From NCBI GenBank assembly GCA_021818985.1, contig JAKASO010000004.1, positions 1 through 64,000 on the forward strand: DNA of 64,000 nt, in the 5' to 3' direction. Position numbers and translations under genes: made by a program. Below, piece after piece: positions 19,454 through 42,264 of the stretch. Position 1 is the stretch's first letter; each line of letters begins with the position of its first letter. This DNA is from a bacterium. GTDB taxonomy: Bacteria; SZUA-79; Acidulodesulfobacterales; Acidulodesulfobacteraceae. The notes beneath the pieces were generated by a model. It searched no databases. It saw nothing but the letters and a program-made list of their open reading frames with translations, and had not been told where the DNA came from.

Positions 19454-20437
19454 ATGGGAAGGCAAAAAGGAAAGGATCTTTTTGTCAAAAGATTGCTGAA
19501 AATAAAAGCTTCTTACCCGCTTTTGTTTGGGATATTTGGATATAAGATAGGTTATTCGATCTCGCCGCTTTTGCATAATAAGACCGCTAAAGCGCTTAAC
19601 TTAGATTTTTGTTATTCAAAATTTGATGTCAAGCCAGATGATTTTCCTTCCGCATTTAACGGATTTAAGGCGCTAAAATTAAAAGGGGCTAATATTACAA
19701 AGCCTTATAAAGAAGTGGTGCTTAAATATCTTGATAAGCTAAGCAAGGAGTCTTCTTTTATCGGGGCCGTCAATACCGTCAATCTTCAACGGGACGGCAG
19801 CTATATGGGATATAATACCGATAGCGCCGGTTTTGTAAACAGCATCGATTTTGAGTTTGGGGCCGGTCTTAAAGATAAAAATATTATACTTATGGGAGCG
19901 GGAGGCGCTTCAAAAGCGATTCTTTATTCGGCGATTAAAGAAGGCGCTAAAAATGTATTTATAATAAACAGAGATATAGATAGGGTTTTCGGTTTATTTA
20001 ATAAGGCTTTATCCTGGGCGAAGGAGATGAAGGCTAAAACCTTGCTAAATTATTCTGATTTTACGTCTTTTACGTCTCTAAGACGTGAAAATGGTCTTTC
20101 TTCCTTAGCGCGGGATCAGGGAAAAAGTTTTACCCCCTTTAAATGCCATTATGATCTTTTCAGGAATTGTGATATAATTATTAGTGCGATTACGCCTTCG
20201 GAAGGGGCAGCGCAGGCAATACAAAATTTGCCGTTAAATTGTATAAATAAAGATTCGCTTGCAATGGATATTGCTTATAATCCTGTTGTAACCCCTTTTA
20301 TGAGGTTAGTTCAGAAAAGGGGGATTAAATGCGTAAACGGTCTTTCTATGTTAGTGTTTCAAGCTATCGAAAGCTTTTATATCTGGACAGGTAAAAGGGT
20401 TGATTTTGATTTTATGGTTTCAGCGGCTAAGCAATAA
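19454..20437 (+). CDS. aroE: shikimate dehydrogenase
   Basis: It reduces 3-dehydroshikimate to shikimate with NADPH in aromatic amino acid synthesis. Substrate-binding residues are present in GYSISPLLHN (33-42), catalytic Lys84 in NITKPYK and Asp123 in NTDSAG. GAGGASKA at about 149 binds the cofactor. At 327 residues it is longer than usual (about 270-290). There is a 20-residue N-terminal extension and an insert at about 201-234 within the NADP domain. The latter half of the insert (SSLARDQGKSFTPFK) is encoded by repeat copy A. Reading frame and downstream motifs (LAMDIAYNP, NGLSMLVFQA) are intact, so the enzyme is probably functional. Confidence 0.92.
   Translation: MGRQKGKDLFVKRLLKIKASYPLLFGIFGYKIGYSISPLLHNKTAKALNLDFCYSKFDVKPDDFPSAFNGFKALKLKGANITKPYKEVVLKYLDKLSKESSFIGAVNTVNLQRDGSYMGYNTDSAGFVNSIDFEFGAGLKDKNIILMGAGGASKAILYSAIKEGAKNVFIINRDIDRVFGLFNKALSWAKEMKAKTLLNYSDFTSFTSLRRENGLSSLARDQGKSFTPFKCHYDLFRNCDIIISAITPSEGAAQAIQNLPLNCINKDSLAMDIAYNPVVTPFMRLVQKRGIKCVNGLSMLVFQAIESFYIWTGKRVDFDFMVSAAKQ
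20097..20143 (+). repeat. dispersed palindromic repeat, copy A (inside aroE)
   Basis: The copy opens with TTTCTTCCTT, carries GGGATCA and closes with ACCCCCTTTAAA. Across the 26 bases from GATCA it aligns to copy B without gaps, with seven differences that are all transitions. It is read in frame as SSLARDQGKSFTPFK within a non-conserved AroE insert. Confidence 0.65.
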
Positions 20438-20560
20438 ACAAAGGTGAACGCAATAAATAATAAATATAACATAAAGGTGATTTCACTATGTATATGGCAT
20501 ATGAATATTGCCGGTAAAACGAAACAATATAAATAATTTTTTAATTGTAATAATTGCAAT

Positions 20561-20600
20561 ATTAAATATTAAATATTAATATTAAATATTAAATATTAAA
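20561..20600 (+). repeat. heptanucleotide tandem repeat (ATTAAAT) before pilB
   Basis: Units of ATTAAAT repeat at 20561, 20568, 20581, 20588 and 20595 (last partial), with one six-base unit (ATTAAT) at 20575. The tract ends two bases before the pilB ATG and replaces any recognisable Shine-Dalgarno sequence. Confidence 0.85.
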
Positions 20601-20602
20601 CT

Positions 20603-22435
20603 ATGGATGATCAGAAAACTATTGACGATCAAAAACTTGGTGAGCTTTTAGTAAAGCAGGGCATTGTTAAAAAAAATGATGTTTCCGATGCTTTGCTGGC
20701 GCAAAAAAGGATAAGGGATAACATAGCAAAGGGTCATAAATTAAAGGATCTTAAGCTTGGGGAAATCTTTGTGAGGAATAATCTGATAACATCCGAACAA
20801 TTAAACAGAGCCCTTGAAGAACAGGATAAAACCGGCGGCAGTGTCGGTGGGCAGTTGACTAAACTCGGTTTTGCAAAAGATTCCGAACTTATATCTTTTT
20901 TGTCAAAGGAATTTGGCGCTGCGACTGTAAATATTTCAACATCAGAAATTCCATCCGCGGTTATAAAACTAATACCGCCCGATATTGCTTTAAAGCATCA
21001 GGTAGTTCCTTACAGAAGACAGGGAAATACGCTTTATCTTGCGGTTTCCGATCCGACGAATGTTGCCGCTCTCGACGATGTTAAATTTTTTACCGGTTTG
21101 AACGTTGAAGTTGTACTGGCGTCTGAAGCGGAGATCAATAATGCCCTATCCACCTATTATAATGCTTCGGCTGTACTTGCAGAACATAAGGATTTTATTG
21201 AATCAATATCTATCTCCGATATAGATGAAGAAATTAATATCTCCGAACTTCAAAGATCTTCATCAGATAAGCCGGTCATGCAGTTTGTTAATAAAGTTAT
21301 TTCCGATGCTGTAAGGAGGCAGGCGAGTGATATCCATTTCGAACCTTACGAATCCGTTATGCGCATTAGATTTCGCATAGACGGAAAACTGATCGAGGCG
21401 ATGAAGATTCCCTGGCAGCTGAAAAATCCGGTCGGTTCCCGAATAAAAATAATGTCGCAGATGGATATATCGGAAAAAAGACTTCCGCAAGACGGCAGAA
21501 TAAAAGTTCGAATGGATGGCAACCAGGAAATAGATCTCAGGGTGTCAACGTTGCCCACCTTGTTCGGCGAAAAGATCGCTATGAGAATACTTGACAAATC
21601 ATTCCTCCAATTAGATATGAAAAAACTTGGTTTTTCTGAGCTTCAGCTTAGAGATTTTAAAAATGCCATCCATAAGCCTTACGGAATGATCCTTGTAACC
21701 GGTCCGACCGGTTCCGGTAAAACCACCACATTATACAGCGCTTTAAGCGATTTGAATAATACTACCGTCAATATATCCACTGCGGAAGATCCGGTGGAAT
21801 ATAATATAGCGGGGACCAATCAGGTTCAGGTTAATGAAGAAATAAATCTTACTTTTGCGTCGGCGTTACGTTCCTTTTTAAGGCAGGATCCGGACATTAT
21901 TATGGTCGGAGAGATCAGGGATTTTGAAACTGCGGAAGTTGCGGTTAAAGCGGCTTTAACCGGTCATCTTGTTCTTTCTACCGTTCATACCAACAATGCG
22001 TCTTCAACGGTGTTAAGATTGATTAATATGGGCGTCGAACCATTTCTCGTGGCTTCAAGCACTAACCTTATAATAGCGCAGAGACTTATAAGAAAAGTAT
22101 GCGAGGGGTGCAAGACGGTTCATAAGATAGATTACCCTCTTCTTAGCGGTCTTGGATTTAAGGATGAAGATATAAAAAATACGGTGTTTTATAAAGGCAA
22201 AGGCTGTCCGGCTTGTATGAATACAGGATATAGGGGCAGGATAGCTATCTATGAAGTCTTAAACATTACCGACGATATAAGAGAGTTGATTTATAAAAAC
22301 GCCAATCAGCTTGAGATCGAGCAAACGGCCATTAAAAATGGCATGATAACGCTAGCGCAAGCGGCTAAAGAAAAATTCCTTGCGGGGATCACGTCGCTTG
22401 ATGAAATATTGCAATATATTGGAAATTATAATTAG
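20603..22435 (+). CDS. pilB: type IV pilus extension ATPase PilB
   Basis: This hexameric cytoplasmic ATPase powers pilin polymerisation. The N-terminal third has MshEN/GspE-II-type repeats (LGELLVKQGIV and LGEIFVRNNLIT). The motor domain has Walker A GPTGSGKTT (about 367-375), an Asp box and Walker B in DPDIIMVGEIRD, and a His box in LSTVHTNNA. A tetracysteine zinc motif follows (CEGC and CPAC). The 610 residues are slightly above typical. No Shine-Dalgarno is visible before the ATG; a heptamer tandem repeat lies there instead. It starts the pilB-pilT-pilC-pilS-pilR cluster. No pilin or secretin genes are in the window. Confidence 0.95.
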   Translation: MDDQKTIDDQKLGELLVKQGIVKKNDVSDALLAQKRIRDNIAKGHKLKDLKLGEIFVRNNLITSEQLNRALEEQDKTGGSVGGQLTKLGFAKDSELISFLSKEFGAATVNISTSEIPSAVIKLIPPDIALKHQVVPYRRQGNTLYLAVSDPTNVAALDDVKFFTGLNVEVVLASEAEINNALSTYYNASAVLAEHKDFIESISISDIDEEINISELQRSSSDKPVMQFVNKVISDAVRRQASDIHFEPYESVMRIRFRIDGKLIEAMKIPWQLKNPVGSRIKIMSQMDISEKRLPQDGRIKVRMDGNQEIDLRVSTLPTLFGEKIAMRILDKSFLQLDMKKLGFSELQLRDFKNAIHKPYGMILVTGPTGSGKTTTLYSALSDLNNTTVNISTAEDPVEYNIAGTNQVQVNEEINLTFASALRSFLRQDPDIIMVGEIRDFETAEVAVKAALTGHLVLSTVHTNNASSTVLRLINMGVEPFLVASSTNLIIAQRLIRKVCEGCKTVHKIDYPLLSGLGFKDEDIKNTVFYKGKGCPACMNTGYRGRIAIYEVLNITDDIRELIYKNANQLEIEQTAIKNGMITLAQAAKEKFLAGITSLDEILQYIGNYN

Positions 22436-22449
22436 CTGGAGGTTTTATT

Positions 22450-23580
22450 ATGCCGTCAATTGCTGATTTATTAAAAACTACCGTTGAGAGGGGTGCTTCG
22501 GACATTCATATAGCTGTCGGCAGCCCGCCCCAAATAAGGATTTTGGGCTCGCTTGTGCCGTTAAATTATCCTGTTTTGTCTCCTTCCGATACCCAAGGGT
22601 TATGTTACAGTATAATAACCGATGTTCAAAAGAAAAAATTTGAGGAATTGCATGAACTTGACTTTTCATTTTCTCAAAAAGGTATTTCCAGATTCAGGGC
22701 TAATCTTTATTTGGATAAAGGAAATATTGCCGGCGCTTTCAGAGTAATCCCGCATGAGATCCCGTCAATGGATTCGTTAGGCCTTCCGCCGATGATGAAG
22801 GAGCTTATTAAATTACCGAGGGGTTTGATATTGGTAACCGGTCCGACCGGTTCCGGAAAAACTACCTCGCTCGCTGCTATGATTGATGTTATTAATGCGA
22901 CTAGACACGATCATATAATTACGATAGAAGATCCGATAGAATACGTTTTTCAGCATAAAGGCTGTCTTGTCAATCAAAGAGAAATTGGGCAGGATTCGGT
23001 AAGTTTTGCAGAAGCGTTAAAGCATATATTAAGGGAAGATCCGGATATAGTGCTAATAGGTGAAATAAGGGACAAAGAAACCATGGAAACCGCTCTTACC
23101 ATTGCCGAAACTGGTCATTTGAGCTTTGGAACGCTTCATACTAATTCAACGGTTCAGACGATAAACAGGATAATAGACATCTTTCCTGCAGACCAGCAGC
23201 CCGAGGTCAGGTCTTCCTTATCTTTATCGCTGGTTGCCGTAATGTCGCAGACTCTTATTCCAAGGCGTGACAATAGCGGCAGGGTTCTTGCAGCAGAGTT
23301 AATGATTCCTAATGCGGCGATAAGAAATTTAATCAGGGAGAACAAGATTCATCAGATTTATTCGCAATTACAATTAGGACAGGAAAAATACGGCATGCAG
23401 ACATTAAATCAGGCGCTCGCTTCGCTTGTAAACAGAAATATCATATCCGAAGAAGATGCCATTAGCTGTTCATCCGATGTGGAAGAATTAAGGCAAAATA
23501 TCTCTTCGGGACTTGTATCCAAAGGAGGTATGGGAGAAACAGGCAAAATCGCGGCCGGATTAAATTTATCCGGAATATAA
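22450..23580 (+). CDS. pilT: type IV pilus retraction ATPase PilT
   Basis: It powers pilus retraction and twitching motility as a cytoplasmic hexamer. Walker A GPTGSGKTTS, the Walker B segment DPDIVLIGEIRD, GHLSFGTLHTNS and the PilT-specific AIRNLIRE motif near the C-terminus are all present. The 376 residues include a short glycine-rich tail (GMGETGKIAAG). A GGAGG Shine-Dalgarno precedes the ATG, 14 bases after pilB. Beyond the TAA stop the same frame stays open for another 29 codons that include repeat copy B. Confidence 0.95.
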   Translation: MPSIADLLKTTVERGASDIHIAVGSPPQIRILGSLVPLNYPVLSPSDTQGLCYSIITDVQKKKFEELHELDFSFSQKGISRFRANLYLDKGNIAGAFRVIPHEIPSMDSLGLPPMMKELIKLPRGLILVTGPTGSGKTTSLAAMIDVINATRHDHIITIEDPIEYVFQHKGCLVNQREIGQDSVSFAEALKHILREDPDIVLIGEIRDKETMETALTIAETGHLSFGTLHTNSTVQTINRIIDIFPADQQPEVRSSLSLSLVAVMSQTLIPRRDNSGRVLAAELMIPNAAIRNLIRENKIHQIYSQLQLGQEKYGMQTLNQALASLVNRNIISEEDAISCSSDVEELRQNISSGLVSKGGMGETGKIAAGLNLSGI

Positions 23581-23840
23581 GATCTTACGCCCGGTGAAAT
23601 GGCCAATTCCGATATGCGGTTTTCTTCCTTGGGGGATCAAAAAAAGGGTTCTACTCCCTTCACCATCTGATAATGTATTTCATCATCTTATCTTTACTTT
23701 TATAAATTTATGTCATATTATATATTATTATACTGTATTATATTATAATTATATTATATTAATAAATATATAAACTTTAATTTTTGTAAAAGGGTTTAAG
23801 GGGTTATTGCCTCCTTATTCCTTTTAAAAAGGGAGCATTT
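23581..23840. other. pilT-pilC intergenic region
   Basis: Most of this 260-base gap is AT-rich. Its first 90 bases are GC-richer and hold repeat copy B in the reading frame of pilT after the stop codon, ending in TGA at 23668-23670. Near the end, AAAAGG and CCTTTT arms with an inner AAGGGG/CCTCCTT pair could fold just before the AAGGGAG ribosome binding site of pilC. No riboswitch consensus (for example the GEMM core) was recognised. Confidence 0.5.
23621..23661 (+). repeat. dispersed palindromic repeat, copy B (after pilT)
   Basis: TTTCTTCCTT is identical to copy A and is followed by GGGGGATCA and a hairpin AAGGG/CCCTT with a seven-base loop. The frame continuing from pilT would read SSLGDQKKGSTPFTI, closely matching the copy A peptide SSLARDQGKSFTPFK, but lies behind a stop codon. 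Confidence 0.65.
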
Positions 23841-25064
23841 ATGGCTATCTATCAATGGAAAGGAAAAAAAAGTACCGGCGAATACTTAAACGGTGAGCTT
23901 GATGCGGCTAATTCCGCAATAGTTGTCGAAGAGCTTCATAAAAAAAATATATATCCTATCCAAGTCGGAAAAAAAAGCGAATTTTTTACCCTGAGTCTTA
24001 CCGGAATAACAGAAGTCGGCCCTAGAACCAAAATAAGCGATAACAACTTGGTCGTCTTTACAAGGCAGTTTTCTTCCCTTATAGATTCAGGCGTTCCTAT
24101 ACTGCAGGGTATTTCGATAATGATAGAACAGCAAAAAAACAAGGAAGTGAAAGGAATATTAATAAAGATCAAAGAAAGCATTGAAGGTGGTGCTTCTTTG
24201 TCAAATAGTTTCAGAAAATTTCCCAGAGTTTTTAATGAATTATATGTGAATCTTGTTGAGGCCGGCGAAAGAGGAGGCGTGCTTGAGGAGGTCTTTAAAA
24301 GACTTTCGGTCTATTTCGAAAAAATAGTCCGTCTTAAAAGAAAAATCAAAGGCGCAATGATCTATCCCATAGTTGTTTTAAGCGTTGCCGTTGCCGTCAT
24401 TGTAATTTTAATGACCTTTGTTATACCGATTTTTGCTAAACTTTTTGCAAGTGTAGGGGCGAAATTACCCCTGCTCACCCGTGAAGTCATTAATTTTAGC
24501 AATTTTCTTAGAGGGAATATTATATATATACTGATCGGGATAGGTATTTTTGTATTTTTATTCAGGTTCTATTATAAAAGAGAGGGCGGGAGAAGAAATA
24601 TAGACAGGTTGCTTCTTAAGATTCCGCTGATAGGAACGCTTTTAAAAAAAGTGGCCATAGCGAGGTTTGCCAGAACGCTTTCCACAATGGTTGAAAGCGG
24701 CGTCCCGATTTTAGCGGCGCTTGAAATAGTTTCTAAAGCAAGCGGAAATAAGATAATAGAAGAATCCGTCATTAAAGCAAGGGAGGATGTGGCTTCGGGC
24801 TCTTCCTTGGCTGCGGCTTTAAATAAGATAGGGCTTTTTCCTCCTTTAGTAATACAGATGATAATGGTAGGAGAAAAGACTGGGAACATGGACGCTATGC
24901 TTGCCAAAGTAGCCGACTATTATGATGAAGAAGTTGACAATGCGGTAACTAATCTCACACAGATGTTAGAACCGGTGCTGATCGTTTTTCTGGGGATCGT
25001 TGTGGGCACTCTTGTAGTTGCAATGTATGAACCGATATTTAACATTGGAAGGGCAATAAAATAA
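23841..25064 (+). CDS. pilC: type IV pilus inner-membrane platform protein PilC
   Basis: This inner-membrane platform couples the PilB/PilT motors to pilin assembly. It contains two T2SSF/GspF domains (about 75-200 and 278-400), each with the pattern FxRxxSxxxxxGVPILxxL (FTRQFSSLIDSGVPILQGI and FARTLSTMVESGVPILAAL). There are three membrane helices: about 172-195, 218-242 and 375-398. The 407 residues are standard. AAGGGAG precedes the ATG. Its stop overlaps an ATG, and pilS starts seven bases later, so the pilus genes are tightly linked. Confidence 0.95.
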   Translation: MAIYQWKGKKSTGEYLNGELDAANSAIVVEELHKKNIYPIQVGKKSEFFTLSLTGITEVGPRTKISDNNLVVFTRQFSSLIDSGVPILQGISIMIEQQKNKEVKGILIKIKESIEGGASLSNSFRKFPRVFNELYVNLVEAGERGGVLEEVFKRLSVYFEKIVRLKRKIKGAMIYPIVVLSVAVAVIVILMTFVIPIFAKLFASVGAKLPLLTREVINFSNFLRGNIIYILIGIGIFVFLFRFYYKREGGRRNIDRLLLKIPLIGTLLKKVAIARFARTLSTMVESGVPILAALEIVSKASGNKIIEESVIKAREDVASGSSLAAALNKIGLFPPLVIQMIMVGEKTGNMDAMLAKVADYYDEEVDNAVTNLTQMLEPVLIVFLGIVVGTLVVAMYEPIFNIGRAIK

Positions 25065-25071
25065 ATGGTAG

Positions 25072-26859
25072 ATGAAACACCCTTTTTTTCCTAATTTTTT
25101 TGCTGAACCGGATAAAAACCTTTATGAAAAACTTAAATTCCTGATCATTTTCAGGTTGACGGCCGCCTCGCTTGCCTATTTCATTTATCTTTTAATCCTG
25201 CCTAAAAATAATTCTAATCTTTTTTTATCGTTTGCCGGTTATGTCTATGTTTTTCTCGGCGCCGTTTTTTTTATTACCCTGTTATATTTATTTGTATTAC
25301 ATATGATAAAAAAGAGCGCCCATGAAAACTACCTGCATTATTTCGGGTTTTCCCAACTTTTTCTGGATCTCGCGATAATATCCGCCGTTGTTATTTTAAA
25401 CGGTGGCTTAAAAAGCAATCTGATCTTTCTATATTATCTTCTTATCATGCTGGCCGCTTTTGTTTTTCTTAAAAGCGGCACGGTATTTTTTACCGTGGCG
25501 GCTGTCTTTGCTATTGGTTTTACCGCCAACCTCCAGTTTTATTTCGATCTTCCCGGACACGGTTATTTTGTGAACAACCCCGATAAGCTATTAATGATTT
25601 CCAGCCTGAATATCCTCGGGGTTCTAATTTTCGGGTGGCTTCTGTATAAATTTTCGGGAAATATTAAATCGTTAAGCAAAAATATAATCGAAAGGGATGA
25701 ATTAATTAAAAATGCCGAAAACTTTAATAAAGAGCTTATTAATAACCTTACGCAGGGGGTTATAGTGCTTAATGAAGAAAAAAGAATAGTTTTTATAAAC
25801 AGGGCTGCGATGGAAATAATTGGAAATGATGTATTTAAAGAGGGTCTGCCAGCTAAAGCAGGCATGCTTTATCATTTTAATCTGAAGATCGGCGATCTTT
25901 TTAAAGATTTTCCTGCGAATGTTTTAAGTGCGAGGGAGGGTGAGGAAAATCCTTACTTAAGAAGATTTGAAATTAATTTCAAAGATAAAGTAATAGGGTT
26001 TGTCTATTCTGTATTAAAAGATGCCGGATATAAGCCTGGACACTATATTATTATTTTCAGGGATATTACCGCCATAAAACAGATGGAAATGGATGCGAAG
26101 ATCAATGAAGGTCTTATAACCACGGGTAAATTGGCAGGCTGGCTTGCCCATGAAATAAGAAATCCTCTTTCCGCCGTTATTACTTCGATTGATATTTTGA
26201 ACGGCAGGGAGGCAAAAGCTGCAGATATGCTTAACTCTTCGGATGCAAAGAAACTTTTAAGCATAATAAAGACCGAATCGTTAAGAGTTGAATCGCTTGT
26301 GAGGGATTTCTTGGGTTTTGTTAAGGTGAAAACTGATAAAATAGGGAAAAATGAAAAAAATTATGAGTATTTTAACCTTTATTCATTTGTTAATTATATT
26401 ATCGGTCAGTTCTATTCATTTACAAGGGATAAAGGAGGCAGTATTAAAATAGTAAACAGAATAGACCGTGAGCTTATGGTTTTTCTTGAAAAATACAGGA
26501 TACAACAAATTTTTATCAATATCATGGAAAATTCGATATACTCTGTTGTTAATAAATTTGACAATATAAAAGGCAGGGGGATAATAAAAATTAGTTCAAG
26601 CGTATTGCATGATGAAGAGGGTAAAGATATGGGAAGGCATTTATGTCTTAATTTTGCCGATAACGGAGACGGTATTGATGAAAAAACGCTTAAAAATGTT
26701 TTTAAGCCGCTTTTTTCTACAAAAAAGGACGGGACAGGTCTTGGTCTTGCTATTACGAAATCAATCATTGAAAATCTAAACGGTTTAATAGAAATAAAAA
26801 GCAAAATACATAAAGGAACGTTGATCTCTGTAAAATTACCCATATATGAAAACCAATAA
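25072..26859 (+). CDS. pilS: sensor histidine kinase PilS
   Basis: This membrane kinase is expected to phosphorylate PilR and control pilin transcription. About six hydrophobic segments fill the first 200 residues. A PAS-like domain follows (about 215-340, with LTQGVIVLNEEKRIVFIN), then the dimerisation histidine in LAHEIRNPLSA and a GHKL ATPase with a DNGDGID box and GTGLGLAI. The order matches PilS. The 595 residues are slightly longer than usual. The gene follows pilC by seven bases and overlaps pilR by 14 bases, supporting the assignment over a generic kinase. Confidence 0.88.
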   Translation: MKHPFFPNFFAEPDKNLYEKLKFLIIFRLTAASLAYFIYLLILPKNNSNLFLSFAGYVYVFLGAVFFITLLYLFVLHMIKKSAHENYLHYFGFSQLFLDLAIISAVVILNGGLKSNLIFLYYLLIMLAAFVFLKSGTVFFTVAAVFAIGFTANLQFYFDLPGHGYFVNNPDKLLMISSLNILGVLIFGWLLYKFSGNIKSLSKNIIERDELIKNAENFNKELINNLTQGVIVLNEEKRIVFINRAAMEIIGNDVFKEGLPAKAGMLYHFNLKIGDLFKDFPANVLSAREGEENPYLRRFEINFKDKVIGFVYSVLKDAGYKPGHYIIIFRDITAIKQMEMDAKINEGLITTGKLAGWLAHEIRNPLSAVITSIDILNGREAKAADMLNSSDAKKLLSIIKTESLRVESLVRDFLGFVKVKTDKIGKNEKNYEYFNLYSFVNYIIGQFYSFTRDKGGSIKIVNRIDRELMVFLEKYRIQQIFINIMENSIYSVVNKFDNIKGRGIIKISSSVLHDEEGKDMGRHLCLNFADNGDGIDEKTLKNVFKPLFSTKKDGTGLGLAITKSIIENLNGLIEIKSKIHKGTLISVKLPIYENQ

Positions 26860-28360
26860 AAAGATACTTATAATAGATGACGAAAAATCCATACTTGAGT
26901 CTTTAGAAATACTACTTAAATATGAAGGCTACGATGTTACTACCGCTATGAGCGCGCTGGCGGCGGTTTCATTGCTCGAAGACCATAATACAGCAGTCTC
27001 ACCTTGCACCGGATCAGAAAAGGGCGAAACTCCTTTTAAATTTGATTTGATCATTTCGGATATTAAAATGACCGAGATGGACGGTCTTGATTTTTTGCAG
27101 TATTTTAAATCTAAATATTCCGGCGAGTTTTTCTCAAAACAGCTGCCGATAATACTTATGACGGCATATTCCGATGTAAAGACCGCGGTTTTGGCAATTA
27201 AAGAGGGTTCGTTCGATTATATAATAAAACCTTTTGATACCGGTGAGTTTAAGGTTTTGGTAAAAAAGGCCATAGATTATTTTGCCGTCTATGATGAGCT
27301 TTCAAGGCTAAAAAACAGCTTAAAAGAAGATAAATTAAGCGGCGGCATAGTCGGAAACTCCGTTTTGATAAAAAACATTATAGATGAGATAGGCAGGCTG
27401 TCAAAAGGATTTACAACGCTTTTAATAACCGGCGAATCTGGAACCGGCAAAGAACTTGCAGCCAAGCTTGCCCATGACGTCTATTTCAGAGGTTCGGGCA
27501 TTTCTTCGCCGGGGCCTTTTGTTCCGGTCAATCTTGCCGCAATCCCTGAAAATCTTGTTGAAAGTGAATTATTTGGTTATGTTAAGGGCGCCTTTACCGG
27601 AGCCGAACAGGATAAAGCCGGCTTACTTCAGTATGCCGAAGGCGGCAGTTTATTTTTAGATGAAATCGGGGATCTGCCTGTGCCTGTCCAGGTTAAGCTT
27701 TTAAGAGTATTTCAGGAAAAAAAATACAGAAAACTCGGTTCAAATGTTGAAAAAAATATTGATGTAAGATTTATAATCGCAACAAATAAAGACTTAACCG
27801 AACTCGTGAGAAACGGGAGTTTTCGGGAAGATCTGTATTTCAGGTTAAATGCCGTGCATATTAAAATGCCGAGGCTCAACGAACATAAAGAGGATATCCC
27901 GTTACTTGCTTCGCATTTTATTAACAAGTTTTCATCCGTTCTTAATAAACATGTAACATCTATAACTCCGGACGCAATTTCTGTTCTTATGTCTTATGAT
28001 TATCACGGTAATGTCAGGGAACTCGAAAATATTATAGAAAGGGCATGCATATATTGCAAAGGAGAAGAACTCACAGTGGACTATCTTCCGGATAATATAA
28101 AAATAAAAAGCGATAAAGAAAATACGGAGCAAAACGGCCTTAATGCGGTTTCATCCTTTTCTTTCTTGAAGGCGAACGATATTTTTAATGATCTGAATGT
28201 TAAAAATAGTTTGAGCCTGCCGGAATTTATAAGAGGGGTCGAAAGAACCATAGCGCAGGAACGTCTTAAATCAAAAAATTATTCCAGAAACGAAGCTGCA
28301 AAAAGCCTCGGTTTATCTCTTCGCTCCTTGAGGTATATACTGTCTAAATACAATACATAG
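26846..28360 (+). CDS. pilR: sigma-54-dependent response regulator PilR
   Basis: It activates sigma-54 promoters, classically that of the major pilin. The receiver domain shows LIIDDEKS and phosphoacceptor aspartate in LIISDIKMTEMDG. The AAA+ domain has GESGTGKE, GAFTGA and LDEIGDLP, and a Fis-type helix-turn-helix ends the protein. The 504 residues exceed the usual 440-480. Part of the excess is an insert of about 18 residues in the receiver (SPCTGSEKGETPFKFD) between alpha-2 and the phosphoacceptor strand, encoded by repeat copy C. The insert lies on a loop before a conserved strand and keeps the frame, so function may survive. It overlaps pilS by 14 bases. Confidence 0.9.
   Translation: MKTNKKILIIDDEKSILESLEILLKYEGYDVTTAMSALAAVSLLEDHNTAVSPCTGSEKGETPFKFDLIISDIKMTEMDGLDFLQYFKSKYSGEFFSKQLPIILMTAYSDVKTAVLAIKEGSFDYIIKPFDTGEFKVLVKKAIDYFAVYDELSRLKNSLKEDKLSGGIVGNSVLIKNIIDEIGRLSKGFTTLLITGESGTGKELAAKLAHDVYFRGSGISSPGPFVPVNLAAIPENLVESELFGYVKGAFTGAEQDKAGLLQYAEGGSLFLDEIGDLPVPVQVKLLRVFQEKKYRKLGSNVEKNIDVRFIIATNKDLTELVRNGSFREDLYFRLNAVHIKMPRLNEHKEDIPLLASHFINKFSSVLNKHVTSITPDAISVLMSYDYHGNVRELENIIERACIYCKGEELTVDYLPDNIKIKSDKENTEQNGLNAVSSFSFLKANDIFNDLNVKNSLSLPEFIRGVERTIAQERLKSKNYSRNEAAKSLGLSLRSLRYILSKYNT
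27001..27040 (+). repeat. dispersed palindromic repeat, copy C (inside pilR)
   Basis: The copy reads ACCTTGCACCGG, then ATCAGAAAAGGG, and ends ACTCCTTTTAAA. The AAAAGG/CCTTTT arms form a hairpin. It shares ACCTTGCA(G)CCGG and CCTTTTAAA with copy D, and GATCA plus AAAAGGG with copy B. It is translated in the PilR receiver insert as TGSEKGETPFK. Confidence 0.6.
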
Positions 28361-28369
28361 AATAGCGGT

Positions 28370-29152: not shown

Positions 29153-29208
29153 TTATAATTTAGCTATAATTAATTATTAAAGTTCATTTTATAAGTCTTT
29201 GTTTAAAT

Positions 29209-29236
29209 AAAAAAGTGGGTTTACCCCGCTTTTTTT
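29209..29236 (+). terminator. terminator/attenuator-like hairpin at the rimP start (rimP leader)
   Basis: An 11-bp stem (AAAAAAGTGGG with CCCGCTTTTTT, one G-T pair) encloses a five-base loop and ends in a run of seven T. It lies 52 bases after truA and stops five bases before the rimP ATG. Its position suggests attenuation of the rimP-nusA-infB operon, as in known rimP leader RNAs, rather than only ending truA. Confidence 0.75.
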
Positions 29237-29241
29237 GTTTT

Positions 29242-29724: not shown

Positions 29725-29773
29725 TAAAAAGGTTATTTAATATTAAGATTAAATAGTCCAAGAGGTGTTGACG

Positions 29774-31069: not shown

Positions 31070-31079
31070 ATATAATATT

Positions 31080-33413: not shown

Positions 33414-33428
33414 TTTTATATTATTATT

Positions 33429-33776
33429 ATGATAGAAAGAAATAAAAGGGTAGGAGAATTAATCTCAAGAGAGATATCTATGCTTCTTGAATCTAAAGTA
33501 AACGACAACAGGCTAAAGAATGTTACTGTCCTGAGGACGGAAGTTTCTAAAGACCTTAAGTTCTGCAGGGTTTTTTTTAGTGTAATGGGATCCGGAAAAG
33601 ACATAGCAAAAGCCTTAAGTGGATTCAAAAGCTCAAAAAATTTCATTAAGAAAAAAGTGTTTTCAAAAGTCATGCTAAAAGCGGTTCCCGAATTGGATTT
33701 TGAATATGACAGCAGTATCGAAAAGGCTTCAAGGATAATGAAAATAATAAATGAATATAATGCAGGTCAAAAATAA
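33429..33776 (+). CDS. rbfA: ribosome-binding factor A
   Basis: This small KH-type protein binds immature 30S subunits and aids 16S rRNA 5'-end processing. The 115 residues show RVGELISREISMLLESKV, VTVLRTEVSKDLKFCRVFFSV-type core strands and a C-terminal segment ELDFEYDSSIEKASRI with the expected LxFxxDxS pattern. Placement between infB and nrnA fits the family. Confidence 0.93.
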   Translation: MIERNKRVGELISREISMLLESKVNDNRLKNVTVLRTEVSKDLKFCRVFFSVMGSGKDIAKALSGFKSSKNFIKKKVFSKVMLKAVPELDFEYDSSIEKASRIMKIINEYNAGQK

Positions 33777-33830
33777 ATTATCGTAAAACAATAAAATTAA
33801 ATAATGAAAACTATGTCTTAGGAGCAATTA

Positions 33831-34964: not shown

Positions 34965-34982
34965 ATAATAAGAAATTGAACA

Positions 34983-35732
34983 TTGGCGGCTAATAGCAAT
35001 AACAGCGGTGTTTTAATAGTAGATAAGCCTGAGAACTTAACATCTTTCAGCGTGGATTTCTATATAAAAAAGGTATTGGACTGTAAAAAAGTAGGACATG
35101 CGGGAACGATAGACCCATTTGCGACAGGGGTATTGCCTGTGCTGATCAATAATGCGACAAAATTTCAGGATCCTCTTGTGGATATCCCAAAATCGTATGA
35201 AGGTTCTTTTAAATTCGGCATTTTTACCGATACCCTCGATATTTGCGGAAAGATATTGAAAGAGAGGGATGTTTCAAGCGGCGATATAGAAAATGTAGCA
35301 AAATATTTAGAAAAGCTTAAAGGCGAGTTTTTCCAGAAGTTTCCCATTTTTAGCGCAAAAAAATTTAAAGGAGTTCCTTATTATAAATATGCAAGGAAAA
35401 ATGTCCTTCCTATGCCTGAAAACAAGGGATCAGTTGTTAATATTTATGATTTTAAAATAATATCCGTAGCAGTCCCTTTTATCAATTTTATGTGCAAGGT
35501 TTCAAAAGGTACTTATGTAAGAGCTTTTGTTCAGGATATTATGGATAAATTCGATATTCCCGTTCATCTTTTCGGTTTAAGGAGGACTAGCGCGGGTGGT
35601 TTCAACATTTCGGAAGCGGTTTCCTTCAAAGAGCTTGAAAAAGGAAAGGACTTTATTTTAACTAAAATTATGCCAGTCGAATTAATTTACCGGCATCTGA
35701 AAGAAGCGAAAGAAGCTCGGTATAATGAATGA
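34983..35732 (+). CDS. truB: tRNA pseudouridine(55) synthase TruB
   Basis: It forms pseudouridine 55 in the T loop of tRNA. Catalytic Asp44 is in GHAGTIDPFATGVLPV. The KRKGVPYYKYAR-like (KFKGVPYYKYAR) and GTYVRAFVQDI segments are present. The 249 residues make a short form lacking the extended PUA region. The start is TTG at 34983, 18 bases after nrnA. Confidence 0.93.
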   Translation: MAANSNNSGVLIVDKPENLTSFSVDFYIKKVLDCKKVGHAGTIDPFATGVLPVLINNATKFQDPLVDIPKSYEGSFKFGIFTDTLDICGKILKERDVSSGDIENVAKYLEKLKGEFFQKFPIFSAKKFKGVPYYKYARKNVLPMPENKGSVVNIYDFKIISVAVPFINFMCKVSKGTYVRAFVQDIMDKFDIPVHLFGLRRTSAGGFNISEAVSFKELEKGKDFILTKIMPVELIYRHLKEAKEARYNE

Positions 35733-35748
35733 AATTGTGGATTTTTTC

Positions 35749-35806
35749 AGTATTTATGTATTATGTATAATATATTATGATGTATAATGTATTTATGTAT
35801 AATGTT
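35749..35806 (+). repeat. imperfect AT-rich direct repeats in the rpsO leader
   Basis: The element TATTTATGTAT(T/A)ATGT recurs with TATAAT-like hexamers between copies. The repeat may contain more than one -10 box for rpsO. No clear -35 partner was recognised. Confidence 0.4.
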
Positions 35807-35873
35807 GGCTGTTATTTATAAATTAAATTATATTTAAGTAAAATTTATTAAGTATGGTGGAGGATTTTATTGT

Positions 35874-36143
35874 ATGCCGATTTCAAAGGAAGAAAAACAA
35901 TCAATAATCGAAAAATTTAAAAAGCATCCTTCCGATTCCGGTTCGGTAGAAGTTCAGGTTGCACTTTTAACATACCGCATTAACCTGTTATCTGAACACT
36001 TTAAAAAGTTTGTCAAAGACCATCATTCAAGAAGGGGTCTTTTAAAAATGGTGGCAAGAAGAAGGCATCTTCTTGATTATCTTAAAGATAAGGATGATTC
36101 AAGATATAAGTCCCTTATAGAAATTCTTGAACTTCGTAAATAA
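35874..36143 (+). CDS. rpsO: 30S ribosomal protein S15
   Basis: This 16S rRNA-binding protein of 89 residues shows family blocks TGSPEVQVALLT-like (SGSVEVQVALLTYRI), HFKKFVKDHHSRRGLLKMVARRR and LDYLKDKD. GGTGGAGG lies ten bases before the ATG. rpsO followed by pnp is a conserved pair. Confidence 0.97.
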   Translation: MPISKEEKQSIIEKFKKHPSDSGSVEVQVALLTYRINLLSEHFKKFVKDHHSRRGLLKMVARRRHLLDYLKDKDDSRYKSLIEILELRK

Positions 36144-36195
36144 ATTTTTGAGCATTGTATAAACCAACAGGAGACACTGGGAGATAATTCAAAAG

Positions 36196-38292
36196 ATGAT
36201 AAATAATGAATTGATAAAAGGGCAGGTGGTTAAAGATTTTATTTTAGACGGCAAAAAGATCGTAATAGAAACAGGGAGGCTTGCCAAACAGGCCAGCGGC
36301 GGCGCCTTAGTCAGTCTTGGCGATACCAAAGTTCTTGTTACCGCTTGCATTGATAAAAATATTAAAGAAGGAACCGATTTTTTGCCTCTTATGGTAAATT
36401 ATGTGGAAAAATTTTATTCAGCAGGTAAAATACCGGGAGGTTTTTTTAAAAGAGAAGGCAGGCCGACTGAAAAGGAAGTTCTTACATCGAGGTTTTTGGA
36501 TCGTCCGATCAGACCCCTTTTTCCGGATAATTATTTTTACGATACACAGATAATTGCTACGGTTGTATCTATGGATAAGGAAAATGATCCGGATATGGCT
36601 GCAATGATAGGAGTGTCGTTTTCGTTAATGTCTTCCGAGATGCCTTTTAACGGTCCTACGGCCGGGGTTAGGGTTGGAAGGGTAAACGGCAATTTTATAG
36701 TTAATCCTACCTATCAGGAGATGGAAAAAAGCGATATACATTTGGTAATTGCAGGATCGAAAGATGCCATTACCATGGTTGAAGGAAGTTTTGACGAGCT
36801 TGATGAGGAGGTTCTTCTTTCCGCCATCGGTTTTGGTCACGGTAAGATAAAGGATCTTGTGGAGTTCCAAAACTCTATTCTTGCGGAATTAGCTGTTAAA
36901 AAACTTGTGTTAGCCCCCTTTAATATGCCTGATGGCCTTTTTGAAAAAGTGAAAGAGACTTCTTACGATAGTCTTGTTCAGGCTATAAACATTCCCACAA
37001 AACAGGAGCGAAGTGAAGCCATTTCCTCGGTTAAAGACCGAACATTATCCCTTTTGCGGGAGGCATATCAGAATTATGAAATGGCTATAGGTAATATTCT
37101 TGAAGATATACAAAAGGATATTATGAGAAAAGCGATATTGACCGAAGGAAAAAGGATTGATGGAAGGGGTTTAAAAGATATAAGACCTATCGCCTGCAGC
37201 GTACGCGAACTTCCGATGGCTCACGGCTCCGGAATCTTTACAAGGGGAGAGACGCAAGCTTTAGTCGTTACTACTTTAGGGACCAAACTTGATGAGCAGA
37301 TCATTGATGCCCCCGAAAGAGACTCTGTTAAAAGATTTATGATTCATTACAATTTTCCTCCGTTCTCCGTCGGTGAGGTTTCTCCTTTAAAATCGCCTGG
37401 CAGGCGTGAGATAGGTCACGGTTCGCTTGCCGAAAAGGCTTTAAGGTTTGTTATACCGTCATTTGAAGAATTTCCCTATACTATCAGGGTCGTTTCCGAA
37501 ATATTAGAGTCTAACGGCTCGTCTTCTCAAGCTACAATCTGCGGCGCCACTTTGTCTTTAATGGATGCCGGTGTTCCGATAAAAGCTCCTGTCGCGGGAA
37601 TCGCCATGGGACTTATAAAAGAAGATGACAAAATTGCAATACTTACGGATATACTTGGAGACGAAGATCATTTAGGAGATATGGATTTTAAAGTTGCGGG
37701 AACGGCTAACGGCGTTACCGCCCTTCAAATGGATATAAAAATAGCCGGCGTTACTAAAGAAATCCTGAGGCGGGCATTGAACCAGGCTAAGGAAGGGCGT
37801 CTGCACATCTTGAATATTATGAACCGGACTATTAAAGAGCCTAATAAAGAACTTTCGCCTTATGCCCCCAGAATCCTGACTATACAGATTAAACCCGCAA
37901 AAGTCAGGGAGGTTATTGGGCAGGGCGGAAAGGTAATAAAAGGGATCATTGAGAAAAGTGGAGCGAAGATTGATATAGACGATTCTGGTAAAGTAAACAT
38001 CTATTCATACGATAAAAACTCTCTTGATCTTGCCAGCGCGATGATAAACGATATCGTGCAGGAAGCTGAAATAGGAAAGGTCTATCTCGGCAAAGTTAGA
38101 AAAATTATGGAATTTGGCGCATTTGTTGAAATATTTCCTGGAACGGACGGGCTTGTGCATATATCGCAGCTTGATGAAAGCCGTGTAGAAAAGGTATCCG
38201 ATGTTTTAAAAGAAGGGGACGAGGTAAAAGTTAAGGTTATTGATATTGATAAAACCGGTAAAATCAAACTATCAAAAAAAGCCGCTCATTAA
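36196..38292 (+). CDS. pnp: polyribonucleotide nucleotidyltransferase
   Basis: This phosphorolytic 3'-to-5' exoribonuclease forms a trimer and is a core degradosome component. Two RNase PH domains (GRLAKQASGGALVSLGDT and RGLKDIRPIACSV, with SNGSSSQATICGATL) flank an all-alpha linker. A KH domain (VREVIGQGGKVIKGIIEKSG) and an S1 domain (GKVRKIMEFGAFVEIFPG) end it. Length (698) is normal. It lies 52 bases after rpsO, and RNase R in this window covers overlapping substrates. Confidence 0.97.
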   Translation: MINNELIKGQVVKDFILDGKKIVIETGRLAKQASGGALVSLGDTKVLVTACIDKNIKEGTDFLPLMVNYVEKFYSAGKIPGGFFKREGRPTEKEVLTSRFLDRPIRPLFPDNYFYDTQIIATVVSMDKENDPDMAAMIGVSFSLMSSEMPFNGPTAGVRVGRVNGNFIVNPTYQEMEKSDIHLVIAGSKDAITMVEGSFDELDEEVLLSAIGFGHGKIKDLVEFQNSILAELAVKKLVLAPFNMPDGLFEKVKETSYDSLVQAINIPTKQERSEAISSVKDRTLSLLREAYQNYEMAIGNILEDIQKDIMRKAILTEGKRIDGRGLKDIRPIACSVRELPMAHGSGIFTRGETQALVVTTLGTKLDEQIIDAPERDSVKRFMIHYNFPPFSVGEVSPLKSPGRREIGHGSLAEKALRFVIPSFEEFPYTIRVVSEILESNGSSSQATICGATLSLMDAGVPIKAPVAGIAMGLIKEDDKIAILTDILGDEDHLGDMDFKVAGTANGVTALQMDIKIAGVTKEILRRALNQAKEGRLHILNIMNRTIKEPNKELSPYAPRILTIQIKPAKVREVIGQGGKVIKGIIEKSGAKIDIDDSGKVNIYSYDKNSLDLASAMINDIVQEAEIGKVYLGKVRKIMEFGAFVEIFPGTDGLVHISQLDESRVEKVSDVLKEGDEVKVKVIDIDKTGKIKLSKKAAH

Positions 38293-38316
38293 TATTTAGA
38301 AATATTTAGAGGAGAT

Positions 38317-39603
38317 ATGAAGCAGATTTTTAAAGAACAGCTTAGTTCAGGGACTACGATTATTACGGAGAAGAAGTCCTATTACGATTCGATGAGCATC
38401 GGCTTCTGGATCAAAACCGGAGGCGTTTATGAGCCTCCTTCTTTGAATGGCATTTCGCATTTTATAGAACATATGCTTTTTAAAGGCACCAAAAACAGGT
38501 CATATTCAGATATAGATAAAGAGATTGATGCGATGGGGGGAGCCCTTAATGCTTTTACCGGAACAGAACTTACATGTTTTTATACGAAAGTTACTGCTAA
38601 AAATTATGAAAGAGCCGTAAATCTTTTAATGGATATAGTATTTAATTCGTTGTTTTTGGAAGAAGAGATAGAAAAGGAAAAGCTTGTTATTTTACAAGAG
38701 ATACTCGGCGCACAGGACGATCCCCATGACCATATCCACGACCTTTTTCAAAAAGATCTTTACGGTGATTCTCCTTTAGGAAATTCTATTCTTGGAACGG
38801 AAAAGAACATAATGGACTTTAAAAGAAATACGATAGTTGACTATTTTAATTCTTATTATACTCCAGGCAATATGTTAATTTCAGTTGCAGGCAATATAGA
38901 CTATAATGCTATTACATCTCTTGCAGAAAAATATATTAAGAAATTCTATCACGGTTCGGCTGTAAGGCGGGTTATGCATAATTACTCCGGAAACGGATCG
39001 CTAAAGCGTTATGGAGAGTATGCACATGACAGGGAGTTGGACCAAACCCATATCGTAATCGGTCTTGACGGTATTAAAAAAACTGATGACGATTATTACG
39101 CTATGGAAGTTCTTAATACGATCCTCGGAGGTTCCGTTAGTTCTCGCCTGTTTCAGGAAGTCAGAGAGAAGCAGGGTCTCGCATATTCAATATATTCTAA
39201 TAGCATATTTCATAAATTTGACGGGTATATTCTGGTCTATGCCGGTATTTCCCCGGATAAGCTTGATATATCGAAAGAAGTTATTTACGATATAATCGCC
39301 GGTTTTTCTGACGCCAAAATCAATGGCGAAGAGCTTTCAAATGCAAAAAAACATGTGTCCGACAGTTTTTTACTTGGGCTTGAATCAACAAGCAATCTTA
39401 TGACGCGAAATGCTTTGAATGAAATTTATAACGGGAGATACTTGTCCAAAAAAGATGTTTTATCCAAAATAGATGCTGTTAACGAAGAAAGTATCTTCAA
39501 TCTTTCAAAAAAATTATTTTCCGACAGGAATAAAAGGGTTCTGACAATACTTGGCAGAACTAATGATATTAAGAATAGTATTAAAAAGGTGGTTAATAAA
39601 TAA
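38317..39603 (+). CDS. M16-family zinc peptidase
   Basis: The inverted zinc motif HFIEH at 48-52 with the downstream glutamate in LVILQEI identifies an active M16 (pitrilysin-type) peptidase. A second, inactive M16 domain (about 190-420) contains the GGSVSSRLFQEVREKQGLAYSI substrate-binding block, split across positions 265-286. There is no signal peptide, so it acts in the cytosol. Its position after pnp matches the conserved rpsO-pnp-pitrilysin arrangement in many bacteria. GAGG precedes the ATG. Substrates are not known. Confidence 0.92.
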   Translation: MKQIFKEQLSSGTTIITEKKSYYDSMSIGFWIKTGGVYEPPSLNGISHFIEHMLFKGTKNRSYSDIDKEIDAMGGALNAFTGTELTCFYTKVTAKNYERAVNLLMDIVFNSLFLEEEIEKEKLVILQEILGAQDDPHDHIHDLFQKDLYGDSPLGNSILGTEKNIMDFKRNTIVDYFNSYYTPGNMLISVAGNIDYNAITSLAEKYIKKFYHGSAVRRVMHNYSGNGSLKRYGEYAHDRELDQTHIVIGLDGIKKTDDDYYAMEVLNTILGGSVSSRLFQEVREKQGLAYSIYSNSIFHKFDGYILVYAGISPDKLDISKEVIYDIIAGFSDAKINGEELSNAKKHVSDSFLLGLESTSNLMTRNALNEIYNGRYLSKKDVLSKIDAVNEESIFNLSKKLFSDRNKRVLTILGRTNDIKNSIKKVVNK

Positions 39604-39609
39604 ACTAAA

Positions 39610-40179
39610 ATGGTAACCGGTACTGTTAACTATCCTAAATCTTATGATGCAATATACCGCAGCGGTTATATTATCGGGTTTATCGGTATTTGCTTATTTA
39701 CTGTATTTTTTATTCTGAATAATATTTTTTCCGCTTCCATCGGGGTAATTATATTTGACATAGGAACTCTTTTATCCGGTTTATTTCTGCTTGTGTGGAG
39801 AAAAGAGATAAAAGTTTTTATCGTATCCTGCATAATTACAGGTTTGATACTTACCCTGATGCTGCTTTTCGTTTTTAGCACAGGCGGCCTTTTAAGGAAT
39901 GAAATCTTTATCGTGGCAACTGGTTTGGTTCTTGCCGGAATGGGGGGCATGTACGGCAAAGAAGCCCATTGCTTTCATTTTTTTGAAGGCTGGGTATTAA
40001 TGTGGTCGTTTCCCGTTATTATACTTATAAATCTTATAGTTTACGGATTAAATCTTCAGTTAGTTCCCGCAGTTCATTTTCTTCTTAGCGCAATATATAT
40101 TTTTATTGCGCTTTTAGCTCTTTCCTTTTTAATAAAAAAGCTTACGCAGCCTTTGATGCAGTTTTGCGAAAACGCTTAA
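39610..40179 (+). CDS. DUF2301-type integral membrane protein
   Basis: The 189-residue protein has about six membrane helices with little polar sequence. The segment GMGGMYGKEAHCFHFFEGW resembles the conserved KEAFCF block of DUF2301 membrane proteins. It follows the M16 peptidase gene by six bases and ends 112 bases before tetR. Function is unknown. The motif-based assignment is moderate. Confidence 0.65.
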   Translation: MVTGTVNYPKSYDAIYRSGYIIGFIGICLFTVFFILNNIFSASIGVIIFDIGTLLSGLFLLVWRKEIKVFIVSCIITGLILTLMLLFVFSTGGLLRNEIFIVATGLVLAGMGGMYGKEAHCFHFFEGWVLMWSFPVIILINLIVYGLNLQLVPAVHFLLSAIYIFIALLALSFLIKKLTQPLMQFCENA

Positions 40180-40204
40180 TAATCCAAGCTCTATATATTT
40201 TTTA

Positions 40205-40233
40205 TTGACTTATGACCATATAGTCATTATAAT
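40205..40233 (+). promoter_or_regulatory. tetR promoter with palindromic operator in the spacer
   Basis: TTGACT (40205-40210) and TATAAT (40228-40233) are separated by exactly 17 bases. The 16-base near-palindrome ATGACCATATAGTCAT occupies 40212-40227, so a bound dimer would cover the spacer. The tetR ATG is 57 bases downstream. Autorepression by the encoded TetR protein is inferred. Confidence 0.75.
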
Positions 40234-40290
40234 AAAAATATAAAAACATAACGGATTATAAGACGAATTACAGGGCAATAAATAACGGAT

Positions 40291-40953
40291 ATGGAAGAGA
40301 TGTCTATAATAAAAGATGATCCCCTAAAAGATGATCCCGCCAAAAAGAGCCGCATTGATTCAATTTTGCAATCCGCAAGAAAACTCGTCGAAGAAGCGGG
40401 ATTTTCAAACCTCACGATGGATACAATAGCCAGAAACGCCGGAATAGCAAAAGGCACGGTATATCTTTACTTTAAAGACAAAAATGAGGTGCTCGAAAAG
40501 GTTCTGGAGACGGGTTTCGAAAGAATGTTCGAGAGGGTTTCAAGAAATGTTGAAAAAGAGATTGAACCGGAGGACAAGTTAAAAACCCTGATATATACTA
40601 ATTTGATGTATATTAAGGAAAATAAATATTTTTTTAGAACGGTATTTTTGGATGAGGTGAATGTTATTTTTTTAAGAAAAAAATCACAGGAATCATTTAA
40701 CCGGAGAAGGCAAAGATATGCGGAGTTTATATCTAAAATAATAAAACAGGGTAGCGATGCCGGAAAATTCAAAAAAATAAATGACCAGTTAAAATTAAGC
40801 TATTTTTTAATATCTTTAATAAAGACAAGCGCCATCTATAACTTTCTTAATCATAAAGGCGGTTTATTTGCCGATATGGCTGCAGGCTACGAAGAGCGGA
40901 TAAAAGAAGAAGCTTATGAAATATTTGATATGTTTATGAACGGCATAACATAA
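40291..40953 (+). CDS. TetR-family transcriptional regulator
   Basis: The 220-residue protein has an N-terminal helix-turn-helix (ARKLVEEAGFSNLTMDTIA then AKGTVYLYFKDK), typical of TetR repressors, and a variable ligand-binding C-terminus rich in aromatic and charged residues. An acidic/basic tail (about 1-15, DDPLKDDPAKK) precedes the helix-turn-helix. It lies upstream of an RND adaptor and pump in the same direction, so it most likely controls that efflux operon in response to a hydrophobic ligand. Its promoter contains a palindrome that is a plausible autoregulatory operator. The ligand is unknown. Confidence 0.9.
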   Translation: MEEMSIIKDDPLKDDPAKKSRIDSILQSARKLVEEAGFSNLTMDTIARNAGIAKGTVYLYFKDKNEVLEKVLETGFERMFERVSRNVEKEIEPEDKLKTLIYTNLMYIKENKYFFRTVFLDEVNVIFLRKKSQESFNRRRQRYAEFISKIIKQGSDAGKFKKINDQLKLSYFLISLIKTSAIYNFLNHKGGLFADMAAGYEERIKEEAYEIFDMFMNGIT

Positions 40954-41097
40954 AAAGATAAAATTTTGCTCCTTATAAGGAACGTCGCTAAAGATTATCC
41001 CCCCTTTATTTTTTAATATAATGTATTAAACAAAGCTCTCTATTTTAACTTAACTAAAAGGTCTTTAATAGAGAACCGTGCATATTAAGAGGCTGAT

Positions 41098-42177
41098 ATG
41101 ACTATAAATAAAAAATATCTTTTTTTATTGGCAATACTTATTTTAATTTCTTCTTTAGCTTTTTCGGCATGCGGAAAAAAGAGTGTCAAATTAAAAGCCG
41201 TTCCGGCAGTAACAGCCGAAAAGGTTAAAATAATGGATGCCGCTATATTTATAAAATCCCCGGGTTATTTTTTACCTTACAAAACCGCCGACGTATCTTC
41301 GAGAGCCTCTGGGCAGGTTGTTAAAATATATGCCCATGATGGCGATTATGTAAAAGCTGGGCAAGTTCTTGCCGTAATTGACAGAACGAAATCTTTTTAT
41401 GCGCTGCAGGCTCAAAAAAGCTTGATAGATAAAGATGAGGCGAGTCTTTCACTTGCAAAATCAACCTTGAGAAGAGATAAATTTCTTTATAAAAAAGCTC
41501 TTTTAACTTCGTTAGAATATGATACCGCCGTTTCAAATTATAAGATGCTTAAGGCGGCCTTAAAAACCGACAGATCAATACTCAAGGTTGACGAAAAAAA
41601 TTACAGGGATACTTTAATAGTTTCAAGAATCAACGGTATTGTGAATAAAAGAATCGTTAATTTGGGCGATTATTTTCCGGTAAATAAAACGGCTTACGAA
41701 ATAGTTGCCTTAAAGCCGTTAGAGCTTGAATTTCATGTGGCTCAGGAAGACGCCGCTATGATAAAAAAAGGACAGAAGTGCTATGTGCGCTCTTCCGGCT
41801 ATCCAAATAAAATATTTAAAGGAAAGATATATTTTATCAGTCCCCAGTTAAATCCTCAAACAAGAATGTTCAGGGTTAAAGCCATGGTAAAAAATAAAAG
41901 TCTCCTTCTTCGCCCCCAGTTATCTGCCGATGTCAAATTAAAAGTTAAAAGGCTAAAAAATGCCATGTTCGTTCCTCAAGCTTCGGTAAGGTCGGGTATT
42001 AAAGGAGATTACGCGTTTCTCTATAAAAATGGCGAGGCGGTCTTAACAAAAGTATTGACCGGAATTACGAAAGGCGGATATATACAAATTGTCAGCGGCG
42101 TAACCCCCAACGACGAGGTTATCCTTAAAGGAGCTAATCTCGTTCATAACGGTGAAGAAGTGAAGGTAATAAAGTAA
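41098..42177 (+). CDS. RND efflux periplasmic adaptor (membrane fusion protein)
   Basis: It bridges an inner-membrane RND pump to an outer-membrane channel. The N-terminus is a hydrophobic signal with a lipobox-like AFSAC (Cys25), suggesting a lipoprotein. A split lipoyl domain (VKIYAHDGDYVKAGQVLAVID and NGIVNKRIVNLGDYF) flanks a short helical hairpin. Beta-barrel and membrane-proximal domains follow (RMFRVKAMV, VPQASVRSG). The 359 residues are typical. The gap from tetR is 145 bases and holds the inverted repeat TCTCTATT/AATAGAGA (41037-41044 and 41067-41074). Its partner pump follows. Confidence 0.92.
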   Translation: MTINKKYLFLLAILILISSLAFSACGKKSVKLKAVPAVTAEKVKIMDAAIFIKSPGYFLPYKTADVSSRASGQVVKIYAHDGDYVKAGQVLAVIDRTKSFYALQAQKSLIDKDEASLSLAKSTLRRDKFLYKKALLTSLEYDTAVSNYKMLKAALKTDRSILKVDEKNYRDTLIVSRINGIVNKRIVNLGDYFPVNKTAYEIVALKPLELEFHVAQEDAAMIKKGQKCYVRSSGYPNKIFKGKIYFISPQLNPQTRMFRVKAMVKNKSLLLRPQLSADVKLKVKRLKNAMFVPQASVRSGIKGDYAFLYKNGEAVLTKVLTGITKGGYIQIVSGVTPNDEVILKGANLVHNGEEVKVIK

Positions 42178-42205
42178 ACTGATTTTGTGAATTCAAAAAG
42201 ACCGG

Positions 42206-42258
42206 TTTAAAAGGGGGTGCCACCTTCCTTTGCCGGCTGCAAGGTTCGAAAGGAAGGC
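42206..42258 (-). repeat. dispersed palindromic repeat, copy D (RND pump leader)
   Basis: Read on the minus strand the copy runs CTTTCGAACCTTGCAGCCGG then CAAAGGAAGG and ends ACCCCCTTTTAAA. It shares ACCTTGCA(G)CCGG and CCTTTTAAA with copy C. CCTTCCTTT (42223-42231) and AAAGGAAGG (42249-42257) are a perfect 9-bp inverted repeat on the plus strand, and the second arm is the ribosome binding site of the pump gene. Confidence 0.6.
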
Positions 42259-42264
42259 TATATT

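Follow-up and report, generated by a model that had tools for sequence, protein, structure and literature searches.

Dispersed copies of a short, diverged repeat between genes and in frame within conserved genes, probably left by an old mobile element

The genome studied here carries a family of short repeats, which we read as an old, decaying mobile mini-repeat that spread to unrelated sites and was kept in genes where it lay in frame. We infer the mobility itself, and we give this reading a probability of about 0.7. After profile iteration, the family comprises 11 supported copies and ~6 weak candidates in a genome of 1,619,359 bases in 89 contigs, of which 1,616,656 bases, or nearly all, were searched. 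Copies A, B, C, and D lie in the window, which is the whole 64,000-base stretch analyzed (contig C30, positions 1–64000), and copies E, F, G, i, k, l, and p lie elsewhere. The sites that host them are unrelated. Mean pairwise identity among the copies is 0.55, and the consensus is roughly TTAAAGGGGGTnnCnCCCTTTTTCyGATCyyCCGaGGAAGAAAGAyTATATT.

A preliminary description of the window had reported the four copies there as a 40–50 bp palindromic repeat lying between conserved genes. We found all four sequences where they had been placed, along with the blocks they were said to share, and the ungapped alignment of A and B around GGGATCA...CCC does show no differences other than transitions. The length given was too short, as the aligned copies span ~53–61 bp, and the family reads most clearly on the strand opposite to the one used previously. 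Placement between genes is right for B and D, but A lies inside aroE and C inside a response-regulator gene. As argued there, gene paralogy does not account for the copies, since their host genes have no relationship to one another. Within a single cluster of pilus genes (window 20087–27042), A, B, and C follow each other at intervals of about 3.4–3.5 kb, a clustering that may reflect no more than the view from one window.

We compared profile matches in the genome with those in simulated genomes. With a profile built from the window copies only (A–D), the next-best matches after the training copies were E (25.6 bits), F (21.1 bits), and G (16.7 bits), scores reached by 0, 0, and 1 of 32 simulated genomes, respectively. 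Leaving out each member of the 11-copy set in turn recovered A, B, E, F, G, k, l, and i above all 32 simulated genomes (A at 19.1 bits and B at 25.4 bits) and p above 31 of the 32. C (13.0 bits) and D (13.2 bits) were not significant genome-wide by DNA alone. A profile made from the copies outside the window scored B at 17.3, A at 16.3, D at 16.1, and C at 12.8 bits, values reached by 1, 2, 2, and 17 of 32 simulated genomes. Earlier held-out tests against 48 simulated genomes had found A, B, and E firm, C borderline, and D unsupported. Furthermore, when non-training matches to a ten-copy profile were counted from 15 bits upward, the genome had six, whereas 60 order-5 Markov genomes averaged 0.25 and never exceeded 1, and the reversed genome had none.

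The profile was grown by iteration, and this brings some selection bias into the late additions. With a four-copy model (R1), the genome itself gave a single additional, weak copy, and 40 relatives gave nothing convincing. Weak matches were then placed on the opposite strand in conserved genes with a common peptide reading, namely in ribD (F), dnaB (k), dnaE (p), and mfd (l). Reversing the orientation and including k, l, and p gave a stable profile, which found i as well as further weak sites. Extension in the previous orientation was dropped, as the profiles were unstable and simulated genomes scored up to 23 bits. Weak candidates with the 11-copy model (R3) score 15–23 bits (L105:9833–9884, L161:1901–1946, L161:16933–16985, L148:443–501, L114:3611–3658, and L085:9620–9661), and none is established singly. 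We took weak matches in LpxI-like, PheT-like, and aminotransferase-like genes to be native sequence. Exact IUPAC patterns had no match in the genome because the copies are too diverged, and a search for over-represented k-mers yielded no repeat word. An Rfam gathering search of the window returned tRNAs only. A pattern scan of viral contigs returned two records with one identical hairpin, AAAAAAGGGGCTTAACGCCCCTTTTTTT, which is terminator-like and was judged unrelated.

Seven of the 11 copies are in open frames, where a conserved protein carries an extra or extended segment, and these coding copies occur in both orientations. The frames that are not used often hold stops. Two of these copies are in the window:

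20087..20145, minus strand (canonical strand): copy A, 33.6 bits with R3, in frame inside aroE of the opposite strand, residues around ENGLSSLARDQGKSFTPFKC
19454..20437, plus strand: aroE, shikimate dehydrogenase of 327 amino acids, host of copy A (TIGR00507 above its cut-off)
26986..27042, minus strand: copy C, 26.3 bits with R3 (training copy), in frame in the receiver domain of the opposite strand, residues about TAVSPCTGSEKGETPFKF
26846..28360, plus strand: NtrC/AtoC-like sigma-54 response regulator of 504 amino acids, host of copy C

All three canonical frames of copy A contain a stop, but one reverse frame, on the strand used by aroE, is open. An alignment with same-family orthologues from 24 relatives places 22–24 extra residues at the repeat in the AroE of this genome only. 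At copy C, the insertion corresponds to 17 gap columns in all 39 response regulators compared, which come from many phyla, and the protein has 17 residues more than several same-family orthologues. Copy C is therefore supported by its coincidence with a protein insertion, although it is weak by DNA alone. AlphaFold2 predicts that the receiver fold is kept (mean pLDDT of 86.7) and that the insert forms a loop between the second helix (residues 37–45) and the third strand (residues 68–72), with a mean pLDDT of about 53 for residues 51–60. One genus (L175 and L176) has a different, shorter asparagine-rich insert, NDDNNKDNG, at the same receiver-domain position, and this suggests that the site is a tolerant spot.

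The coding copies outside the window are in a secretin gene (E, N-terminal part; contig C75), ribD (F), the dnaB N-terminus (k), dnaE (p), and mfd (l). RibD is longer by about 21–23 residues than in several relatives, judging from matched spans, and homology to the solved RibD stops before the repeat. For aroE, the response regulator, and ribD, relatives lack the extra segment. In dnaE, homology breaks around the repeat, and Mfd homology ends at residue 1094–1096 in several relatives, with the repeat starting at residue 1099; both cases are weaker evidence, as they were judged from homology breaks in variable regions rather than from orthologue alignments. DnaB homology begins at residue 42–44, behind the repeat, and the dnaB and secretin copies sit in variable N-terminal extensions, which is weaker evidence than internal inserts.

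The remaining copies lie between genes. G is between rpoD and a Nif3-like gene, i is in the intergenic region behind argJ, and the other two are in the window:

23611..23666, minus strand: copy B, 33.0 bits with R3, intergenic, about 30 bases downstream of a pilT-type gene
22450..23580, plus strand: PilT/PilU-type pilus ATPase, upstream neighbor of copy B (TIGR01420)
23841..25064, plus strand: PilC-type pilus assembly protein, downstream neighbor of copy B (NF052606/TIGR02120 matches)
42205..42265, plus strand: copy D, 30.1 bits with R3 (training copy), immediately upstream of an RND permease gene and in contact with its likely ATG (42265)
42265..45342, plus strand: RND multidrug efflux permease (listed open reading frame from GTG 42217)

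The pilT frame stays open for 29 codons past its stop, through copy B (window 23581–23667; DLTPGEMANSDMRFSSLGDQKKGSTPFTI), so copy B might at one time have belonged to that frame. Family matches to the permease begin at residue 17–20 of the longer open reading frame, near the in-frame ATG at 42265, the likely start. Copy D can be read in the permease frame as KGVPPSFAGCKVRKEGYI-M. Two repeat or repeat-like sequences end at start codons, one at L130:13005–13050 (a glycerol-3-phosphate dehydrogenase-like gene) and one at window 42205–42265 (the RND permease), where the purine-rich 3' half could serve as a ribosome-binding site.

In its own genome, R3 gives 30 matches at E ≤ 1, with a best value of 4e-12. 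In 26 other genomes, 16 of them from the same family, it gives 0–14 matches at E ≤ 1, with a best value of 0.0035. A few of these 26 genomes have one match below 0.03, which is slightly above E-value expectation. We treated these few as background, given the purine-rich 3' half and the rough E-values of these models. The preliminary description had proposed that a profile be run against the genome and its relatives, taking a small mobile or self-spreading repeat to be the simplest reading. That search returned more matches at non-homologous sites than simulated genomes do and near-background levels in the 26 others. The excess, the segments absent from orthologues, and the near-background elsewhere make a small mobile or self-spreading repeat the reading with the most support, and the step to mobility itself is drawn from comparisons outside the genus.

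Several other explanations of the copies were weighed against this reading. The low pairwise identity would fit chance resemblance in an A+T-rich genome and a family put together by post hoc selection, and single simulated genomes do reach 17–23 bits with some profiles. However, the window-only profile recovered E and F above every simulated genome, the ten-copy profile found many more non-training matches than expected, and copies coincide with lineage-specific protein insertions; we consider chance highly improbable. The shared unit could also be a peptide and not DNA, with the extra segments being loops in which one amino-acid motif recurs through convergence or selection. The coding copies do share frames, with KK(D/G)YI-type ends in F, k, and p and (T/A)PF(K/N) in A, C, and E. 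Against this, one set reads the shared DNA on one strand and the other set on the opposite strand, the differences between A and E (counted by hand) are spread over the three codon positions, and the intergenic position of B, G, and i already disfavors a peptide unit, which we rate just as poorly as chance.

The copies might instead be intrinsic terminators or similar AAAGGGG...CCCCTTT stem-loops that are alike by function, and several weak matches are indeed intergenic hairpins (e.g., L148:441–470 and L134:15026–15078). The inner hairpin of the preliminary description is present in some copies, but in the segments given there and in copy E, its strength does not exceed that seen in dinucleotide shuffles (z of +0.03 to +1.29). 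Across the 11 full copies, the mean folding z against such shuffles is −0.27, and the consensus structure across the alignment holds only four predicted pairs. The term "palindromic" was therefore dropped. Convergent hairpins would also leave unexplained that the 3' half GGAAGAAAGAYTATATT is common to the copies and that seven copies are in coding sequence, away from the intergenic G+C-rich hairpin and T run of an intrinsic terminator. We regard them as very unlikely. The least likely of the alternatives is a miniature derivative of a resident IS200/605-like element, moved by a now-lost Y1 transposase. Y1 transposases act on hairpin ends, and the sole PF01797 match in the genome is a truncated remnant of such an enzyme, a 30-residue fragment of the IS200/605 type (L236, C83:110633–110722). 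No copy was seen beside this remnant, and the copies lack a conserved hairpin. Beyond this fragment, our search of the genome for a mobilizing enzyme found none. By inspection, terminal inverted repeats are absent, as the copy ends (TTAAAGGG... and ...CTATATT) are not complementary, and no target-site duplication was recognized around the copies as they stand in this one genome.

For the preferred reading, an old mobile mini-repeat, we propose the following. A repeat of ~53–61 bp would have spread to many unrelated sites in the genome of this lineage, genic and intergenic alike and with no fixed orientation. The copies would owe their positions to copying and insertion and not to some other origin, with an enzyme supplied in trans moving them. 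Copies in genes would have been kept if they were in frame, had no stop in the frame being read, and sat at a terminus or in a loop that tolerates them, and the remaining copies would have survived between genes. The retained in-gene copies are predicted to be translated as about 17–25 extra residues, and these added peptides would be mostly neutral. The mean pairwise identity of about 0.55 points to an old burst, and the activity of the repeat is probably over.

Among known systems, the family most resembles the palindromic elements of Rickettsia and Wolbachia in that it occupies many non-homologous sites, both between genes and in frame inside conserved genes. Rickettsia palindromic elements (RPE) measure about 100–150 bp, form long stem-loops, and carry a terminal inverted repeat of 12 bp (PMC2229807, PMC3767692). 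They lie in frame in many genes (PMC2229807, PMC3767692, PMC10969869), and similar elements occur in Wolbachia (PMC4224334). The dispersed copies of these elements sit between genes as well as inside conserved protein genes, whose frame they leave intact (PMC2229807, PMC3767692, PMC4224334). RPE insertions have been described for the alpha chain of DNA polymerase III and for regions exposed to solvent (PMC3767692); likewise, the present family is found in dnaE and in a predicted loop. Unlike RPE, its copies are ~53–61 bp, with no fold excess and no terminal inverted repeat seen, features by which the RPE descriptions set it apart, and its presence in both orientations inside genes is a further difference. 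By analogy of genomic behavior, the family would work like RPE, but its length and lack of a palindrome keep us from filing it as a member.

Other short repeats are less similar. REPs are palindromes of 20–40 bp (PMC3733652). REP/REPIN elements with RAYT share with the present family the character of short, dispersed, non-autonomous repeats, whereas the present family has no conserved palindrome, has in-gene copies, and resides in a genome without an intact Y1 transposase. MITEs are small and non-autonomous and sometimes form in-frame fusions (PMC10969869), but the family has no recognized terminal inverted repeats or target-site duplications. The very small mobile repeated elements of cyanobacteria, as PMC2884548 cites them from Elhai et al. 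2008, are some 20 bp and thought to be mobile; on that account they are very short and dispersed like the present family but differ from it in sequence and in their length of some 20 bp.

We see even odds that the family represents a second class of protein-invading mini-repeats that arose independently, its members being roughly half as long as RPE, non-palindromic, read in frame from both strands, and present in core replication, repair, riboflavin, and shikimate genes. In-frame invasion of conserved genes by tiny repeats has been described in depth chiefly for Rickettsia and Wolbachia. If our reading is correct, in-frame gene invasion by tiny DNA would not be a peculiarity of Rickettsiales, and a palindrome would not be needed for it. 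A separate, shorter, non-palindromic family would then offer another natural experiment in the gain of new protein segments, weakening the case for a palindrome requirement, and it would supply concrete test proteins in AroE, the NtrC-type regulator, RibD, and DnaE.
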